Shown one piece after another: positions 31,813 through 38,945 of a DNA stretch of 64,000 nt (its first letter is position 1; each line of letters begins with the position of its first letter). The notes beneath the pieces are model-generated. The model had not been told where the DNA came from. It ran no database searches and saw only the letters and a program-made list of their open reading frames with translations. A program made the position numbers and the translations under genes. Source of the DNA: Massilia soli (GTDB taxonomy: Bacteria; Pseudomonadota; Gammaproteobacteria; Burkholderiales; Burkholderiaceae_D); the NCBI RefSeq assembly GCF_016809835.1, contig NZ_JAFBIL020000006.1, positions 62,001 to 126,000 on the forward strand, written 5' to 3'.

Positions 31813-34467
31813 ATGATGAAACAAACAGTCCTATCGGCCTCGCTGACCACCGTGTTCGCCGCCGGTTTCGCCGCGGTCGCGCCCGCGCCTGCGCATGCTC
31901 AGGTCGACCAGCAAGGCCAGCCGATCCAGCGCGTCGAGATCACCGGCTCCTCCATCAAGCGCATCCAGGCCGAAACCGCCACGCCCCTCACCATCATCAA
32001 AGCCGAAGACTTCATCAAGCAAGGCGTCACCACCGCGCAGGAAGCGATGTCGCGGATCGCTGCCAACCAGACCAGCATGGGCAGCGGCAACGCTGTCGGC
32101 GGCAACACCAGCGGCCTGCCGACCGGCGGCCAGGCCAGCGCCGACTTGCGCGGCCTGGGCGGCGACAAGACCCTGGTGTTACTCAATGGACGGCGCCTCG
32201 CCAACCACCCGTACGACACCGCCAGCGTCGACCTCAACATGATTCCGATCTCCGCGCTCGACCGCGTCGAGGTGCTGCGCGACGGCGCCTCCGCGATCTA
32301 CGGCACCGACGCGATCGGCGGCGTGATCAATTTCATCACCAGGCGCTCGGTCACCGCCACCACCATCAGCGCCGAAGCGGTGCGTCCGCGCAAGCACGGC
32401 GCCGATGAAGAAAGAGTCAACCTGTCGACCGGCTTCGGCGACCTCGACGCCGACGGCTACAACGTGTTCGGCGTGATCGACTGGCACAAGCAGGAAGTGC
32501 TGACCTCGCAGCAGCGCGCATTCTCGCGCACCGGCATCGTGCCCTCGCGCGGCTTGTCGGTCACCAGCGGCACCACTTTCCCCGGCAATTTCTTCGACCC
32601 GGTCTCCGGCGTCGCCGGCAACCCCGGCGCCGCCACCGGCTGCCTGCCGCCGAACTCGGTGGCGCAAGGCGCGATCTGCCGCCAGGACTACACCCAGCTG
32701 ATCGACAACCTGCCGGCGCAGGAACAGCGCGCCTTTTATGCGAAGGGATCGATGAAGGTCGGCGGCGGCCACGTCGCCAGCGTCGAATTGCTGCACTCGG
32801 AAAACGACGTCACCTCGCGCACCGCGCCGCCGCCGCAGACCGGCCTGATCCTGCCGCCCACCAGCCGCTACTATCCCGGCAATGCCGGCGGCGTGCCGGC
32901 GATGGCCGGCCTGTCCGGCGCGCCGCTGTCGGTCAACTGGCGCCCGATCGAGGCAGGCCAGCGCGAGATCGACTCGGAAGGCAAAGCCGACCGCGCCGTG
33001 CTGGCGATGGAAGGCGTGCTATCGGGCTGGGACTACAAGACCGGGCTTGCGCACTCGGTCAGCAAGTCGAACGAGAACTTCGTCGGCGGCTACGTGCAGG
33101 ACGCCTCGTTCGCCGCCGGCGTGGCCAACGGCATCCTGAATCCATTCGGCATGCAGGACACCGCCGGCCTCGCCTATCTCCAAAGCACGGCGCTGCGCGG
33201 CGAAGTGCAAAGCGCGAAGGTGAAGAACACCGCAATCGACTTCACCGCCAGCCGCGAGATCATGCCGATGGCCGGCGGCCAGCTGGCCGTGGCCGTGGGC
33301 GCGGAAGTGCGGCGCGAACAGGCCGACTTCGACGTCAACCAGGCAATCGCCTCGCAGGCGTCGAGTTCGGGCTTGTCGGGCTCGCTGCCGAAGAGCGGCT
33401 CGCGCAACATCCAGGCGATCTTTGGCGAGCTGTCGATCCCGTTCATCAAGAATCTCGACGTGCAGCTGGCGGCCCGCTTCGACCGCTACAACGACGTCGG
33501 CAACACCACCAATCCAAAGATCGGCGTGCGCTACCAGCCAACCCGCCAATTGCTGCTGCGCGGCTCGGCCAGCACCGGCTTCCGCGCCCCGACCTTGTTC
33601 GAGAAGAATGCGCCGCCGTCGCGCAACGACACCAACGACTCGTACGACGATCCGATCCTGTGCCCGGGCGGCGTGCCGCAGCCGGGCGCCAACCCGCTGC
33701 GCGACTGCGACCTGCAGCAGTACAAGCTTCAGGGCGGCAATCCGAATTTGAAACCGGAGAAGTCGCGCACCTACGCGGCGGGCCTGGTGATCGAGCCGAT
33801 CCCTGAGGTGACGGTGGCCATGGACTACTGGCACATCCGCCTGAAGGACAAGATCGCCGCGCTGCCTGAACAGACGATCTTCGGCAACTTCGAGAAGTAC
33901 CGCAACCTGTTCCTGCGCAACCCGGACGGTTCGCCGTTTGCGATCGAGAACTTCCTTAACAACCTCGGCGAAGTGGAAACCGATGGCGTCGACGTCAGTG
34001 TCAATGCGCGCCTGCCGCGCACCGGCATGGGCAGGTTCACGCTAGGCATGGAAGGCACCTGGATTCATAACTACGAATACCAGAACGAGCGCGGCGGGGA
34101 GTTTATCCAGAACGTCGGGCGCTACGCCGACATGGGCGCGGTGTTCCGCTGGCAGCACACGCTGACCCTGGGTTGGACGATGGACAACTGGAATGCGATG
34201 CTGGCGAACGTGTACAAGTCGTCGTACGACGACCAGAACTTCGTCGATCCGGCTTTCTTCAACAAGGTCGACGCGTACAGCCTGTGGAATGTGTCGGCCA
34301 GCTACACCGGCTTCAAGGGCTTGACCTTGACGGCTGGCGTCAAGAACCTGCTCGACGAAGATCCGCCGTTCACCAACCAGGGGACCCTGTTCCAGAAAGG
34401 GTATGACCCGCGCTACACCGATCCGGTCGGGCGGGCGCTGTACCTGCGGGCGAGCTACAGCTTCTAG
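31813..34467 (+). CDS. TonB-dependent outer membrane receptor (TBDR 2)
   Basis: 884 residues. The signal peptide is cut near AHA|QV (residue 29), and a TonB-box-like IQRVEITG sits at 38-45. The plug has DKTLVLLNGRRLA, VDLNMIPISALDRVEVLRDG and GTDAIGGVINFITRR, and the barrel ends in the classic terminal Phe (ALYLRASYSF). The N-terminus is strikingly like that of the receptor at 52798-55563 (shared IQRVEITGS and IKRIQ), so the two are probably paralogues. GGAG lies about 9 nt before the first of two adjacent ATG codons. The ligand is unknown. Confidence 0.93.
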   Translation: MMKQTVLSASLTTVFAAGFAAVAPAPAHAQVDQQGQPIQRVEITGSSIKRIQAETATPLTIIKAEDFIKQGVTTAQEAMSRIAANQTSMGSGNAVGGNTSGLPTGGQASADLRGLGGDKTLVLLNGRRLANHPYDTASVDLNMIPISALDRVEVLRDGASAIYGTDAIGGVINFITRRSVTATTISAEAVRPRKHGADEERVNLSTGFGDLDADGYNVFGVIDWHKQEVLTSQQRAFSRTGIVPSRGLSVTSGTTFPGNFFDPVSGVAGNPGAATGCLPPNSVAQGAICRQDYTQLIDNLPAQEQRAFYAKGSMKVGGGHVASVELLHSENDVTSRTAPPPQTGLILPPTSRYYPGNAGGVPAMAGLSGAPLSVNWRPIEAGQREIDSEGKADRAVLAMEGVLSGWDYKTGLAHSVSKSNENFVGGYVQDASFAAGVANGILNPFGMQDTAGLAYLQSTALRGEVQSAKVKNTAIDFTASREIMPMAGGQLAVAVGAEVRREQADFDVNQAIASQASSSGLSGSLPKSGSRNIQAIFGELSIPFIKNLDVQLAARFDRYNDVGNTTNPKIGVRYQPTRQLLLRGSASTGFRAPTLFEKNAPPSRNDTNDSYDDPILCPGGVPQPGANPLRDCDLQQYKLQGGNPNLKPEKSRTYAAGLVIEPIPEVTVAMDYWHIRLKDKIAALPEQTIFGNFEKYRNLFLRNPDGSPFAIENFLNNLGEVETDGVDVSVNARLPRTGMGRFTLGMEGTWIHNYEYQNERGGEFIQNVGRYADMGAVFRWQHTLTLGWTMDNWNAMLANVYKSSYDDQNFVDPAFFNKVDAYSLWNVSASYTGFKGLTLTAGVKNLLDEDPPFTNQGTLFQKGYDPRYTDPVGRALYLRASYSF

Positions 34468-34480
34468 CAGAGACGCACCC

Positions 34481-34514
34481 GGCGGATGCGCGCTGCGCGC
34501 TTGTCCGCCGTTTT
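34481..34514 (+). terminator. Intrinsic terminator of TBDR 2
   Basis: GGCGGA and TCCGCC enclose a second inverted pair (GCGCGC/GCGCGC), and TTTT follows. It sits in the 50-nt gap between convergent TBDR 2 and the DAHP synthase, so the T run is short and overlaps the end of aroG. Confidence 0.6.
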
Positions 34515-34517
34515 GAC

Positions 34518-35579
34518 TTACTGGTCTTGGCGTACGCGGCGCTGGCGCACCGCCTGCGCCAATCCTTCCAGCACCTTCAGGCTGCTCTCCCAATCGATGC
34601 AGCCATCGGTCACCGATTGACCGTAGACCAGCTCCTTGCCCGGAATCAGATCCTGCCGCCCAGCGACCAGGTGCGATTCCACCATCACGCCAACGATACG
34701 GTCATCGCCGCCGGCAACCTGTTCGGCAATCGACGCGCACACCGGCACCTGGTTCTCCGGCTTCTTCGAGCTGTTCGCATGCGACGCATCGATCATCAGG
34801 CGCGAAGCCAGTCCCTGCGCGGCGATCTGCTGGCACGCCTGCTCGACACTGGCCGCGTCGTAGTTCGGCGCCTTGCCGCCGCGAAGGATGATGTGGCAGT
34901 CCTCGTTGCCATTGGTCGATACGATCGCCGAGTGCCCGCCCTTGGTCACCGACAGGAAATGGTGCGGCTGCGACGCCGCCTTGATCGCTTCCACCGCAAT
35001 CTTGATGTTGCCGTCGGTACCGTTCTTGAATCCGACCGGGCACGACAGGCCAGAGGCCAGTTCGCGGTGCACCTGCGACTCGGTGGTGCGCGCGCCGATC
35101 GCGCCCCAGCTGATCAGGTCGGCGATGTACTGCGGGCTGATCACGTCGAGGAATTCGGTACCGGCGGGCAGTCCAAGTTCATTAATGTCGCGCAGCAGTT
35201 CGCGCGCCATGCGCAGGCCGTCGTTGATGCGGAAGCTGTTGTCCATGTATGGGTCGTTGATCAGGCCCTTCCAGCCGACCGTGGTGCGCGGCTTCTCGAA
35301 ATAGACGCGCATGACGATTTCCAGTTCGCCCTTCAAGCGCTCGCGCTCGCCGGCCAGGCGGCGCGCGTATTCCATCGCCGCCTTGGTGTCATGAATCGAG
35401 CAAGGGCCGATGACGACCATCAGGCGGTCATCCTGGCCGTGCAGGATGCGGTGCAGGGCCACGCGTGCGCCGGCCGCGGTTTGTTCGGCAACGCCAGTGC
35501 ACGCGAATTCGCGGATCAGGTGCGCAGGCGGGACAAGTTCCTTCATTTCGCGGATGCGCAAGTCGTCGGTGCGTGGCAT
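34518..35579 (-). CDS. aroG: Class I 3-deoxy-7-phosphoheptulonate (DAHP) synthase
   Basis: 353 residues (E. coli AroG 350). It has the class I core: VVIGPCSIHD with metal-ligand Cys60, MRVYFEKPRTTVGWKGLIND, ISWGAIGARTTESQVHREL, GFKNGTDGN, and a C-terminal DASHANSSKKPE then VESHL. It condenses PEP with erythrose 4-phosphate in the first step of the shikimate pathway. The feedback inhibitor (Phe, Tyr or Trp) cannot be decided by eye, so aroG is a family label. GGAG lies 6 nt before the ATG. Upstream is a full attenuation leader: promoter, Phe/Tyr-rich leader peptide and terminator. Elsewhere in Burkholderiales, as I recall, this gene sits next to tldD; here a TBDR lies between them. Confidence 0.96.
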   Translation of the reverse strand: MPRTDDLRIREMKELVPPAHLIREFACTGVAEQTAAGARVALHRILHGQDDRLMVVIGPCSIHDTKAAMEYARRLAGERERLKGELEIVMRVYFEKPRTTVGWKGLINDPYMDNSFRINDGLRMARELLRDINELGLPAGTEFLDVISPQYIADLISWGAIGARTTESQVHRELASGLSCPVGFKNGTDGNIKIAVEAIKAASQPHHFLSVTKGGHSAIVSTNGNEDCHIILRGGKAPNYDAASVEQACQQIAAQGLASRLMIDASHANSSKKPENQVPVCASIAEQVAGGDDRIVGVMVESHLVAGRQDLIPGKELVYGQSVTDGCIDWESSLKVLEGLAQAVRQRRVRQDQ

Positions 35580-35617
35580 GGTGTTCTCCGTGTTCAGTTC
35601 GAATCAATGTTGGAAAT

Positions 35618-35643
35618 AAAAAAACCGCCATCGCTGGCGGTTT
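35618..35643 (-). terminator. Attenuator terminator upstream of the DAHP synthase
   Basis: Minus strand: AAACCGCCA / TGGCGGTTT with a 4-nt loop (GCGA), followed by a T run and then ATTTCC. It is about 35 nt before the aroG ATG and downstream of the leader peptide gene. Two upstream segments can compete for its 5-prime arm: GGCGGT at 35695-35700 (six perfect pairs with ACCGCC), and GGCCGGTT at 35679-35686 (seven pairs with a one-base bulge). Confidence 0.88.
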
Positions 35644-35687
35644 CTAGAATGTGCTGGGGATCTCGTTGTCGCTACGTGAACCGGCCG

Positions 35688-35756
35688 CTACTCCACCGCC
35701 TGAAGGCTGGAATGGCTAAAGTAAAAGTGGCAGGTAAAGAAAGCAATGTAGCGCAT
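35688..35756 (-). CDS. Phe/Tyr-rich leader peptide of the DAHP synthase attenuator
   Basis: A 22-codon frame beginning MRYIAFFTCHFYF and ending QAVE, then TAG. Four Phe and two Tyr fall within the first 13 codons, far above expectation. It starts about 18 nt after the predicted transcription start and ends 45 nt before the terminator hairpin. By analogy with pheL and trpL, a ribosome stalled at Phe/Tyr codons would free the downstream GGCGGT/GGCCGGTT segment to pair with the terminator arm. A weak GGGA serves as ribosome site. The role is inferred from sequence layout. Confidence 0.85.
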   Translation of the reverse strand: MRYIAFFTCHFYFSHSSLQAVE

Positions 35757-35780
35757 GTCGGATCCCAAAGGGTTGCAATG

Positions 35781-35810
35781 ACTATAAACCGATTGCGTGC
35801 GAATTGGCAA
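35781..35810 (-). promoter_or_regulatory. aroG: Sigma70-like promoter of the DAHP synthase leader
   Basis: Minus strand: TTGCCA (35805-35810), 18-nt spacer, TATAGT (35781-35786). Each hexamer differs little from consensus. The predicted start is near 35774, about 18 nt before the leader peptide ATG. Confidence 0.7.
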
Positions 35811-35914
35811 GCCTTTTTGCGGCAGCCCTTTACCAGCGCGCGCCTGACGCGGCGGGCGCTGCCGGCGAGCCGGTTGCGGCCTTCCCACACTTGACCCGCT
35901 AAGGGCGCTTAGCT

Positions 35915-35944
35915 TGACGCGCGTCAGCCGCGCCACCGGCGCGG
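35915..35944. repeat. Perfect palindrome plus hairpin in the aroG / TBDR 3 divergent region
   Basis: TGACGCGCGTCA (35915-35926) is a perfect 12-bp palindrome. It is followed by CCGCGCC-ACC-GGCGCGG (35928-35944), a 7-bp stem with a 3-nt loop. No T run follows on either side, so this is not an obvious terminator. It could be an operator, but nothing proves it. Confidence 0.5.
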
Positions 35945-36022
35945 GTGCAAAACTCGGAGCACCTGCCCCCCTGCCCGGCCCTGCTGGCGATCAAACCGCG
36001 CGCATGTTTCTCCTCGGATTTA

Positions 36023-36036
36023 TTGACTGTTGTCAA
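36023..36036. promoter_or_regulatory. FNR/CRP-family-like dyad upstream of TBDR 3
   Basis: TTGACTGTTGTCAA is a perfect inverted repeat with a 4-nt centre (TTGAC-N4-GTCAA). The spacing equals that of FNR-family sites (TTGAT-N4-ATCAA). It is centred about 60 nt upstream of the TBDR 3 ATG. A similar dyad is at 59065-59080. Confidence 0.45.
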
Positions 36037-36089
36037 CGAGGGAGCATTTGCCGGACAGGGGTCACTCATTCGTTCCCTGGAGCTTATCA

Positions 36090-38945
36090 ATGAAAGAAAC
36101 TGTCCTGTCCCGCCTATTGCGCCCCTTGTTCGCCGGCGGCGGCGCGCTTGGCCTGGCGGCGCTGGCCCTGCCCGCGCAGGCCCAAGAGCCACAACCCACC
36201 GCCCCGGTCGCCCGCGTGGAAGTCACCGGCACGCTGATCCGGCGCGCCGAAGCGGAAACCTCGTCCTCGGTGCTGACCCTCAACCGCGCCGACATCGAGC
36301 GCTCCGGCAAAACCACGGTGGCCGAGCTGCTGCAAACGCTCGCGGTCGACAACCAGGGCTCGGTGCCGATGGGCTTCGGCAGCGGTTTCGCCGCCGGCGC
36401 GTCCGGCATCTCGCTGCGCGGGCTCGGCGCCGCCTCCACCCTGGTGCTGATCAACGGACGCCGCGTCGCGCCCTACGGCCTGGCCGATGACGGCCAAAAA
36501 ATGTTCGCCGACCTGAACATCATCCCGTCCGAAGCCATCGAACGGGTCGAGGTGCTCAAGAGCGGCGCCTCGTCGCTGTACGGGTCCGATGCGATTGCCG
36601 GGGTGGTCAATGTGATCTTGCGCCGCGAATTCGTCGGCACCAGCATGCGCGCCAGCTTCGGCCAGTCGGAGGAAAGCGACGGCAACGACGGCGTGGTTGC
36701 CGTCACCCACGGCTTCGGCGACCTCGACAACGACCGCTACAATGTGCTGATGAGCCTGGAATACGGGCGCCGCAGCGACGTCTGGCTGCGCGACCGCGCC
36801 GAGCGCGGCCATATCGGCCGGGTCGACTTGCGCAACTGGGGCTACAGCGCCCAGCAGGCGCTAGGGGGAACCGGCGCCATCGTCGACAACAACCTGGCCG
36901 GCAGCGCGATCAACGGCAACGTGCGCAATCCCGATACGCTCGACTATCACAACCGCGGCAACCTGGGCCCCGGCACCGGCTTTACCCAGCTGTTCCCTGG
37001 CGCGGCCTGCGCCAACTTCACCAGCCACCCGCAGGGCGATCCGCTAGGCGGCTGCCTGATCGATTCGACCCTGGTGTACAACCAGATCCAGCCAAGCCAG
37101 GAGCGCATCAACTTCTTCGCGCGCGGCACCATGCAGCTGAACCCGGTGTGGCAGGTGTACAGCGAGCTGAACTTGTACCGCAGTAAATCCGAGTCGTCCA
37201 CCACCCCGTCCGGCATCAACGCCAACGTCGGCTATCCGGGCGGACCGGTCAGCAACGCCGCGGTCGCGCTGGGCCCCGGCCACCCCGACAACCCCTATTT
37301 CGGCAGCACGGCGCGGCTGCGCTACCTGGCCGCCGATGTCGGCCCGCGGGTCAGCAACATCGAGTCCGACTTCATCCGCTTCGTTGCCGGCGCCAAGGGA
37401 CAGTTCGCCGGCTGGGAGATCGACACCGCCCTGCTGTTTTCGCAAAACGAGGTCGCCAACGAGCGCACCGGCTACCTGCAGCGCGACGTCGCCTTTGCCC
37501 TGCTCAATCCGAGCCTGGCCAACGTGGCGGCGGCGGCCCAGAACGAGGCTTACCGCAGTTTGCCGCCGGGGACCGTCTGGCGCATCGCCGAGAACGCGGG
37601 CCTGAATTCGCCGGCGCTGTACAACGCGCTGTCGCCGATGATCGCCAACGACGCCAAGACCCGGGTGGCCCAGATTGACCTCAAGGGTTCGCGCGACGTT
37701 GCCCAGCTACCCGGCGGCCCGGTCGGCCTTGCCGTCGGGGGCGAGTTCCGGCGCGAAGAGGCCGAGCTGGAACCGACCGCCGGCACCGAGCGCGGCAACA
37801 TCATCGGCCTTGGCTATTCGGCCTATAAAGGCGCGCGCAACGTCGCCGCGCTGTACGCCGAAGTGCTGGCGCCGGTGCACAAGACGCTGGAACTGTCGGC
37901 TGCGCTGCGCGGCGACCACTACAGCGACGCCGGCGACTCGTACACGCCGAAGGTCGGCTTCAAATGGCAGCCGCAAAAATCGTTCGCGCTGCGCGGCACC
38001 TACGCGCGCGGCTTTCGCGCCCCGAGCACGGCCGAAAACGGCGTCGGCGGCCTGGCGGCGTTCTCCACCGCGGCCGACCCGCTGCGCTGCGGCCTGGGCG
38101 TCGAGTCGGCCTGCGATCCGGCCAGCGTGGCGGTCATCACCTCGCCCAACCCGGGGCTCAGCCCGGAGAAGGCGCGCACGATGAACCTTGGCATGATCTG
38201 GGACCCGTACGCGCGCACCAACATCGCGATCGACTTCTGGGAAGTCAAGCGCAAGAACGAAATCAACCAGGAGCAGATCAACGCGGCGATCGCCGCCGGA
38301 CGGGTCGCGCGCGACCCCACGACTGCCGCCGCCGGCATTGCTGGCGACCCGGGCCAGATCACGGCGGTGCTGGCCAGCTACGTCAATTCGGCCGAAAGCG
38401 AAGTGCGCGGCGTGGATGTGGAGTTCCGCCAGGGCTTCAGCGTTGGCCAGGTCACCGGCTTCGTGATGGACGCCAAATGGACCCACCTGTTCCGCTGGCT
38501 GCGCACCGAGCAGGACGGCAGCTCGCTCGACTTCGCCGGCACCCACGGCAACTGCGACGTGACCAACTGCATCGGCACGCCGGATGACCGGGTCAACTTC
38601 CGGCTGTCGTGGGAGCGCGAAGTGTGGAAGGTCTCGGCCAACATGAACTTCCGCGGCAACATCAAGAACACCTTCTTCAAGGACGATCCGGAAGGCTGCG
38701 CCAGCCACTTCGCCAACGGCGCCGATGCGCCGGCCAATTGCGAGCTGCCCTCGTTCACCACGGTGGACCTGACGCTGCGCTGGATGGCGATGCCGAAGCT
38801 GGAAGTGTTTGGCTCGGTGCAGAACGTGTTCGACCAGATCGCGCCGCTCGATCCGCTGACCTACGGCGCCCAGGCCTACAATCCGCTCGATGCGCCCGGT
38901 GCGATGGGGCGGTTCTTTACCGCGGGGGTGAGGTACAAGTTCTGA
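36090..38945 (+). CDS. TonB-dependent outer membrane receptor (TBDR 3)
   Basis: 951 residues from the ATG at 36090, where the signal peptide starts (MKETVLSRLLRPLF, cleavage near AQA|QE, residue 31). The TonB-box-like VARVEVTG is at 40-47. The plug has STLVLINGRRVA, LNIIPSEAIERVEVLKSGAS and GSDAIAGVVNVILRRE. The barrel ends FFTAGVRYKF with the usual terminal Phe. The gene lies between aroG and tldD on the opposite strand from both, which suggests insertion into a conserved block. The ligand is unknown. The frame is open 60 nt further upstream, but without signal-peptide character. Confidence 0.93.
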   Translation: MKETVLSRLLRPLFAGGGALGLAALALPAQAQEPQPTAPVARVEVTGTLIRRAEAETSSSVLTLNRADIERSGKTTVAELLQTLAVDNQGSVPMGFGSGFAAGASGISLRGLGAASTLVLINGRRVAPYGLADDGQKMFADLNIIPSEAIERVEVLKSGASSLYGSDAIAGVVNVILRREFVGTSMRASFGQSEESDGNDGVVAVTHGFGDLDNDRYNVLMSLEYGRRSDVWLRDRAERGHIGRVDLRNWGYSAQQALGGTGAIVDNNLAGSAINGNVRNPDTLDYHNRGNLGPGTGFTQLFPGAACANFTSHPQGDPLGGCLIDSTLVYNQIQPSQERINFFARGTMQLNPVWQVYSELNLYRSKSESSTTPSGINANVGYPGGPVSNAAVALGPGHPDNPYFGSTARLRYLAADVGPRVSNIESDFIRFVAGAKGQFAGWEIDTALLFSQNEVANERTGYLQRDVAFALLNPSLANVAAAAQNEAYRSLPPGTVWRIAENAGLNSPALYNALSPMIANDAKTRVAQIDLKGSRDVAQLPGGPVGLAVGGEFRREEAELEPTAGTERGNIIGLGYSAYKGARNVAALYAEVLAPVHKTLELSAALRGDHYSDAGDSYTPKVGFKWQPQKSFALRGTYARGFRAPSTAENGVGGLAAFSTAADPLRCGLGVESACDPASVAVITSPNPGLSPEKARTMNLGMIWDPYARTNIAIDFWEVKRKNEINQEQINAAIAAGRVARDPTTAAAGIAGDPGQITAVLASYVNSAESEVRGVDVEFRQGFSVGQVTGFVMDAKWTHLFRWLRTEQDGSSLDFAGTHGNCDVTNCIGTPDDRVNFRLSWEREVWKVSANMNFRGNIKNTFFKDDPEGCASHFANGADAPANCELPSFTTVDLTLRWMAMPKLEVFGSVQNVFDQIAPLDPLTYGAQAYNPLDAPGAMGRFFTAGVRYKF

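Follow-up and report, generated by a model that had tools for sequence, protein, structure and literature searches.

A putative Phe/Tyr leader-peptide attenuator upstream of the DAHP synthase gene aroG in Massilia soli and related bacteria

How is the gene for the first common step of aromatic amino acid synthesis controlled in Massilia soli? The question is raised by the region upstream of aroG in the 64,000-nt stretch of this genome that we analysed (the window), where a promoter, a short ORF with Phe and Tyr codons and an intrinsic terminator follow one another. A first-pass annotation of the window had read this as a classical pheL-type layout, and conservation and compensatory changes among related sequences support that reading. 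Judged by sequence evidence, namely its anatomy, its conservation, covariation of the 1:2 helix and of the terminator helix (3:4), and alternative pairings that overlap and exclude each other, the aroG element is with a probability of about 0.9 a ribosome-mediated transcription attenuator of the pheL/trpL type. From the same evidence we infer its start site, translation, ribosome stalling, termination and response to amino acids.

Anatomy of the aroG leader

The assignment of the gene to aroG, DAHP synthase, held: its product scores 589 bits against the cutoff of 568 bits of the NCBIfam AroG equivalog (NF006723). Among solved structures, those most similar to it in sequence are AroG entries of E. 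coli (514 bits), one of them named Phe-sensitive, and structure entries named Tyr-sensitive (6agl and 6agm) reach 358 bits. A second DAHP synthase with 52% identity is encoded elsewhere in the genome, and no leader is visible in the upstream stretch of it that was read. In the window, aroG lies between two TonB-dependent receptor genes of the opposite strand (31813-34467 and 36030-38945, plus strand).

Direct reading of the sequence confirmed the annotated promoter, which has 10 of 12 consensus matches, and the 22-codon leader with four Phe (codons 6, 7, 11 and 13) and two Tyr (codons 3 and 12) in its first 13 codons (Table 1). Transcription would start about 17 nt 5′ of the leader ATG. The 9-bp terminator, with the hairpin AAACCGCCA-GCGA-TGGCGGTTT followed by a T run, is also as annotated, except that the gap between it and the aroG ATG (35579) is 38 nt and not 35 nt.

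Table 1. Coordinates of aroG and of the parts of its leader element in the window
Feature	Position	Strand	Remarks
Whole element: sigma70-like promoter, leader ORF, GGCGGT and intrinsic terminator	35810-35617	minus	
Sigma70-like promoter, TTGCCA-18-TATAGT	35781..35810	minus	TTGCCA 35810-35805, 18-nt spacer, TATAGT 35786-35781
Leader peptide ORF, MRYIAFFTCHFYFSHSSLQAVE, 22 codons	35688..35756	minus	ATG 35756 to TAG 35688
Region 1a, ACCTGCC, leader codons 8-10	35729..35735	minus	Putative partner GGCCGGT; covarying helix
Region 1b, GCCATTCCA	35708..35716	minus	Putative partner TGGAGTAGC; pairing in 47 sequences and window fold
Region 2, antiterminator strand GGCGGT	35695..35700	minus	Within last leader codons; complementary to terminator 5′ arm
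Region 1b partner, TGGAGTAGC	35687..35695	minus	Across leader stop codon
Region 1a partner, GGCCGGT	35680..35686	minus	Second antiterminator segment of the first-pass annotation
Post-stop segment, GGCCGGTT	35686-35679	minus	Contains GGCCGGT
Region 3, terminator 5′ arm, AAACCGCCA	35635..35643	minus	Contains the region 2 complement ACCGCC, 35641-35636
Region 4, terminator 3′ arm, TGGCGGTTT, and T run	35618..35630	minus	Arm 35630-35622, T run to 35618
aroG, 3-deoxy-7-phosphoheptulonate (DAHP) synthase	34518..35579	minus	NCBIfam and structure matches

Counting both strands, the window has 1,692 short ORFs (8-40 aa), and only the aroG leader has at least six Phe/Tyr among codons 2-13; 30 first-order Markov resamplings yielded 75,906 short ORFs, none with as many. 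Consensus scans of 34400-36200 found a single sigma70-like site, which is the leader promoter (shuffle expectation 0.4), no promoter between terminator and aroG, and a single terminator, which is that of the leader. Neither promoter nor terminator is significant on its own in these scans, the terminator hairpin because shuffles give 1.6 on average. A covariance model of the element (see below) matches it with E=9e-35, and the next matches in the genome are at 4e-4 and weaker. The leader-terminator layout upstream of aroG is real and not a product of chance. Three of the weaker model matches (L193, L194 and L195), considered as further copies of the switch, were found by eye to have no Phe/Tyr leader and were rejected.

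Conservation of the leader and of its RNA pairing

The first-pass annotation had proposed that related aroG upstream regions be aligned to look for a conserved leader ORF, conserved Phe/Tyr codons and compensatory changes in the two hairpins. Our family sample comprised the best 80 of more than 585 aroG loci of named genomes, 29 other family loci and the window, 110 in all with some duplicates, and leader and terminator were recognised upstream of aroG at 108 of them (98 distinct). Carriers include Massilia, Duganella, Rugamonas, Janthinobacterium, Collimonas and Herminiimonas, and also Undibacterium, Noviherbaspirillum, Oxalicibacterium, Paraburkholderia and Caballeronia. Of 97 distinct sequences, 58 have a promoter of the form TTGC[CA]A-17/18-TATAGT no more than 75 nt from the leader. 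At one of the two misses (L032) the end of tldD is only 36 nt 5′ of aroG. The other is in Candidatus Burkholderia humilis, where a Phe/Tyr run is visible and its frame extends 48 codons past the terminator; this leader looks eroded.

At an E of up to 0.01, the covariance model, built from 47 aligned sequences, has matches in 234 of 240 family genomes, in 209 of the 212 that are of good quality and in 40 of 44 genera, with the position of matches 5′ of aroG established for the 110 family loci only. While 219 of the 234 genome matches are below 1e-9, the other 15 lie in an E range where ordinary hairpins may score, as the weak matches in the window genome suggest. The switch looks real and widespread because it has been kept in many related bacteria. 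It also accompanies aroG despite differing upstream genes: 49 of the 110 aroG loci have a same-strand TldD-type C-terminal motif in the upstream stretch searched (190-2500 nt) and 61 do not, and the leader is found with or without it.

Phe and Tyr codons are conserved as well, with a Phe-(Tyr/Trp/Phe/His)-Phe motif in 112 of 117 leader loci. Among 2,552 residues of the 117 leaders (first 22 of each) there are 537 Phe, 241 Tyr and 44 Trp. Variation at Phe/Tyr codons is mainly synonymous or aromatic, with many synonymous third-base changes. For 88 leaders anchored on a TTT codon, which is present in all 88 by construction, the preceding codon is TAC in 54, TAT in 15, TTC in 8, TTT in 6 and another in 5. 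Phe is encoded by TTT 399 times and by TTC 138 times in the 117 leaders; the Phe codons of aroG itself in the window are six TTC and no TTT, and those of its two TonB neighbours are 67 TTC and 10 TTT.

The last aromatic codon and the GGCGG-type segment are 14-20 nt apart in 100 of the 117 loci and 1-12 nt apart in 17. In five leaders (L014, L020, L031, L067 and L082) indels or frame changes follow the main Phe/Tyr codons; the tail of the peptide is altered there, but the GGCGG segment is kept. In two others (L006 and L045) the leader stop comes 8-9 codons later, which gives a different coverage by the terminating ribosome. That the terminator might act constitutively as a brake or mark where a small RNA ends, unresponsive to amino acids, is suggested by T-run hairpins being common, as the weak covariance-model matches illustrate; the joint occurrence of Phe/Tyr codons, competing segment and terminator in 117 loci argues against this reading and makes it very unlikely.

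Pairing of the attenuator RNA was evaluated in the 47 sequences, which are of the Massilia/Duganella/Janthinobacterium type, and in 500 shuffles of their alignment. For the 1:2 hairpin and the terminator together, 96.4% of cells are paired (92.9% in shuffles). The covariation score is 0.110 (0.058 in shuffles), a value that no shuffle reaches. Likewise, 33 cells are changed on both sides compared with 12.4 in shuffles, of which again none of 500 gets as far; rows of the alignment are related and shuffles leave this relatedness in, so these cells should not be read as events. Two of the five covariation measures are weak, namely pairs with both-sided change (4 compared with 2.7 in shuffles, reached by 86 of 500) and pair types (13 compared with 11.2, reached by 43 of 500). 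Compensatory changes of the kind that the first-pass annotation had proposed to look for were found. Versions of the helices slid along the alignment are 30-52% paired.

Within the putative protector hairpin (1:2), which overlaps the regulatory codons, it is the outer helix that covaries. Its top covarying pair joins leader codon 9 and the post-stop segment and is G-C in 20 sequences, U-A in 19, C-G in one and other in seven; the window, whose own 1a helix has one mismatch, is among these seven (U opposite C), and in a relative (L003) the two positions do pair. The inner 1b helix is paired in 96.5% of cells with no both-sided change. It was taken from the window's own fold, and the RNAalifold consensus favours another inner helix for part of the 1:2 region (columns 34-45 with 61-69). 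In the terminator helix, A-U is replaced by G-C in three sequences and by U-A in seven. When parts of the window are folded singly, the terminator segment exceeds shuffles in stability (z -3.0) and the whole element does so moderately (z -2.1), while neither the antiterminator segment (z -0.46) nor the leader as far as 35655 (z -0.56) is more stable than shuffles.

Two segments had been annotated as able to pair with the terminator 5′ arm, and of these GGCGGT stands. A contiguous complement between regions 2 and 3 of at least 6 nt exists in 108 of 117 loci and of 4-5 nt in the other nine, compared with at least 6 nt in 166 of 2,340 mononucleotide shuffles. The core GGCGGT:ACCGCC is 99.3% paired and nearly invariant in the 47-sequence alignment, so covariation is uninformative for the antiterminator there; such near-invariance is as expected for a strand with two partners. 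Extensions of the 2:3 pairing differ between loci (GCTGGCGG/CCGCCAGC, CCTGGCGG/CCGCCAGG, CCGGCGG/CCGCCGGA and GAGGCGGT/CCGCCTCC), a pattern that would fit compensating change. The second segment, GGCCGGTT, was rejected as an antiterminator: its pair with AACCG of the terminator arm is broken at one position in 25 of 47 sequences and shows no covariation, and for these reasons it was assigned to the 1:2 hairpin, where its GGCCGGT would pair mainly with codons 8-10 of the leader, in the outer helix of the protector.

A regulated-looking terminator before a biosynthetic gene could also be controlled by a metabolite-binding RNA (riboswitch) or a T-box rather than by a ribosome. We regard this as extremely unlikely, since none of the Rfam families matches the window at gathering score, the Phe/Tyr codon run with its many synonymous third-base changes makes up the conserved 5′ part, and the alignment is variable between leader end and terminator. 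At relaxed E-values the window gave five sub-threshold Rfam matches, the best to an unrelated sRNA family (21 bits) and none to a T-box family.

Proposed attenuation mechanism

According to the attenuation model, RNA polymerase would start at the site given above and be followed by a ribosome on the leader. When Phe-tRNA and Tyr-tRNA are ample, the ribosome would reach the stop codon and cover GGCGGT, so that the 3:4 terminator forms and transcription stops before aroG. When Phe, and probably also Tyr, is short, it would stall at codons 10-13 and mask regions 1a and 1b; GGCGGT could then pair with ACCGCC in the 5′ arm of the terminator, and aroG would be transcribed. In leaders that are not translated, the 1:2 hairpin would engage the neighbourhood of region 2 and the terminator would form. 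Given the sizes of ribosome footprints, a ribosome with codon 13 in its A site would cover the leader up to about nt 50, so that regions 1a and 1b are hidden and GGCGGT at nt 57-62 stays accessible, while a ribosome at the stop codon would cover about nt 49-79 and hide GGCGGT. This geometry is that of the classical switch. Judging from residue counts and the Corynebacterium glutamicum precedent discussed below, Phe is the likelier main signal.

Attenuation of aroG may be only part of the role if the leader transcript or peptide also acts in trans. The terminated transcript is predicted to be about 155 nt long with its own promoter, GGCGGTGGAGTAGCGG and CACG vary little or not at all over much of their length in the 47 sequences, and there is a precedent in the trp leader peptide of Sinorhizobium meliloti, which is reported to act in trans (PMC7298713). 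However, the invariant stretches coincide with the 1:2 and 2:3 helices and the C-terminal part of the peptide is altered in some species, and we think a trans role unlikely.

Known systems and distribution beyond the family

One known system close to the proposed attenuator is E. coli pheL-pheA, with a Phe-rich leader and a logic of protector, antiterminator and terminator. The aroG element shares both, and the difference is in the target: pheL controls pheA, whereas the element of the window precedes aroG, the gene of the first common step. The Rfam family Phe_leader (RF01859) reaches 17 bits (gathering score 55, E 2.1) over 35615-35667, which is the terminator and about 20 nt before it. DAHP synthase control in E. 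coli is alike in that the first step is lowered when aromatic amino acids are plentiful. It differs from the aroG attenuator in using the DNA-binding repressors TyrR and TrpR, without a leader peptide.

Neither HTH_50 (PF18024), which we take to be the Pfam domain of TyrR, nor TrpR (PF01371) has a match in the Massilia soli genome at E up to 0.001, with E. coli positive in both controls. Therefore, the switch could be the main transcriptional control of aroG in this genome. TyrR and TrpR regulons have been described for gammaproteobacterial lineages in a regulon survey (PMC5343134).

First-step control by ribosome stalling had been annotated as a different wiring; it is so relative to E. coli, but a reported precedent and some predicted cases exist in other lineages. 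The closest reported one is aroR-aroF of Corynebacterium glutamicum, for which, according to a review (PMC11802643), Neshat et al. 2014 described control of DAHP synthase by a Phe-Tyr-Phe leader. As reported, this system resembles the one proposed here in having the leader before a DAHP synthase gene and in stalling that raises transcription, and it differs in belonging to an actinobacterium, in forming an operon and in responding to Phe and not to Tyr; the two are likened by description. In addition, Table 7 of PMC1173090 (2005), taken from Merino's website, lists attenuators that were predicted upstream of operons combining a DAHP synthase gene with tyrA, in Vibrio and elsewhere. Attenuation is proposed there for an operon starting with a DAHP synthase gene, aroA(I-alpha, Tyr)-tyrA of Vibrio, whereas the lineages are other ones and the listing is of tyrA operons only. 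Its entry for Bordetella parapertussis is the gyrA-serC-pheA-tyrA cluster, not aroG.

By titles and the starts of abstracts, we found no description of an aroG attenuator in Burkholderiales among the literature matches listed. A word search found neither aroG nor DAHP in the main texts of PMC2965389, PMC4603805, PMC8632094 and PMC5688073, the last taken without its Table S3 (82 short 5′UTRs of B. cenocepacia), and in PMC4448311 E. coli aroG appears solely among tabulated candidates from computation. The aroG element belongs, with good support, to a classical kind of switch, and the literature matches searched give no description of it.

Our results offer a possible piece of wiring for first-step control of aromatic amino acid synthesis in a large order, in genomes such as that of Massilia soli, in which TyrR and TrpR were not found. 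They also define a testable RNA element that every family of Rfam 15 misses at threshold, and a handle for metabolic engineering of Burkholderiales bacteria. Enzyme and Phe-Tyr-Phe motif are the same as in the actinobacterial switch, which would be convergence if the two are unrelated.

Outside the family we considered the 60 best order-level matches (56 genomes) and 20 class-level matches, both drawn from longer lists. A Phe/Tyr-rich leader followed by a T-run hairpin precedes aroG in 18 of the 60 order-level upstream regions, in 9 of 26 families, and in one of the 20 at class level; six of the 18 order-level terminators were recognised by eye after the terminator detector had missed them. 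An independent rule set (leader, GC-rich hairpin and T run) picked the same 19 of the 80 and none of the other 61. No leader was found in 42 of the 60 best order-level upstream regions, so the switch is dispensable, and its distribution in the order is patchy. In leaderless loci the sequences suggest a tldD-aroG readthrough unit as an alternative arrangement in place of the attenuator. The TldD motif lies 87-148 nt 5′ of aroG in ten leaderless loci (L032, L112, L115, L126, L127, L138, L140, L148, L156 and L167), and the copy in L032 was identified as TldD.

We put forward tentatively, and with some doubt, a wider proposal: one ancient ribosome-sensing switch of aroG that reads Phe and Tyr together may be the main control at the start of the shikimate pathway across much of the Burkholderiales, in the place of TyrR/TrpR in E. 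coli, and selection for TTT, the rarer Phe codon, may tune how sensitive the switch is. Outside the order, the one class-level carrier (L172, genome G360) has a GTG-started leader with Phe, Tyr and Trp and the same terminator core.
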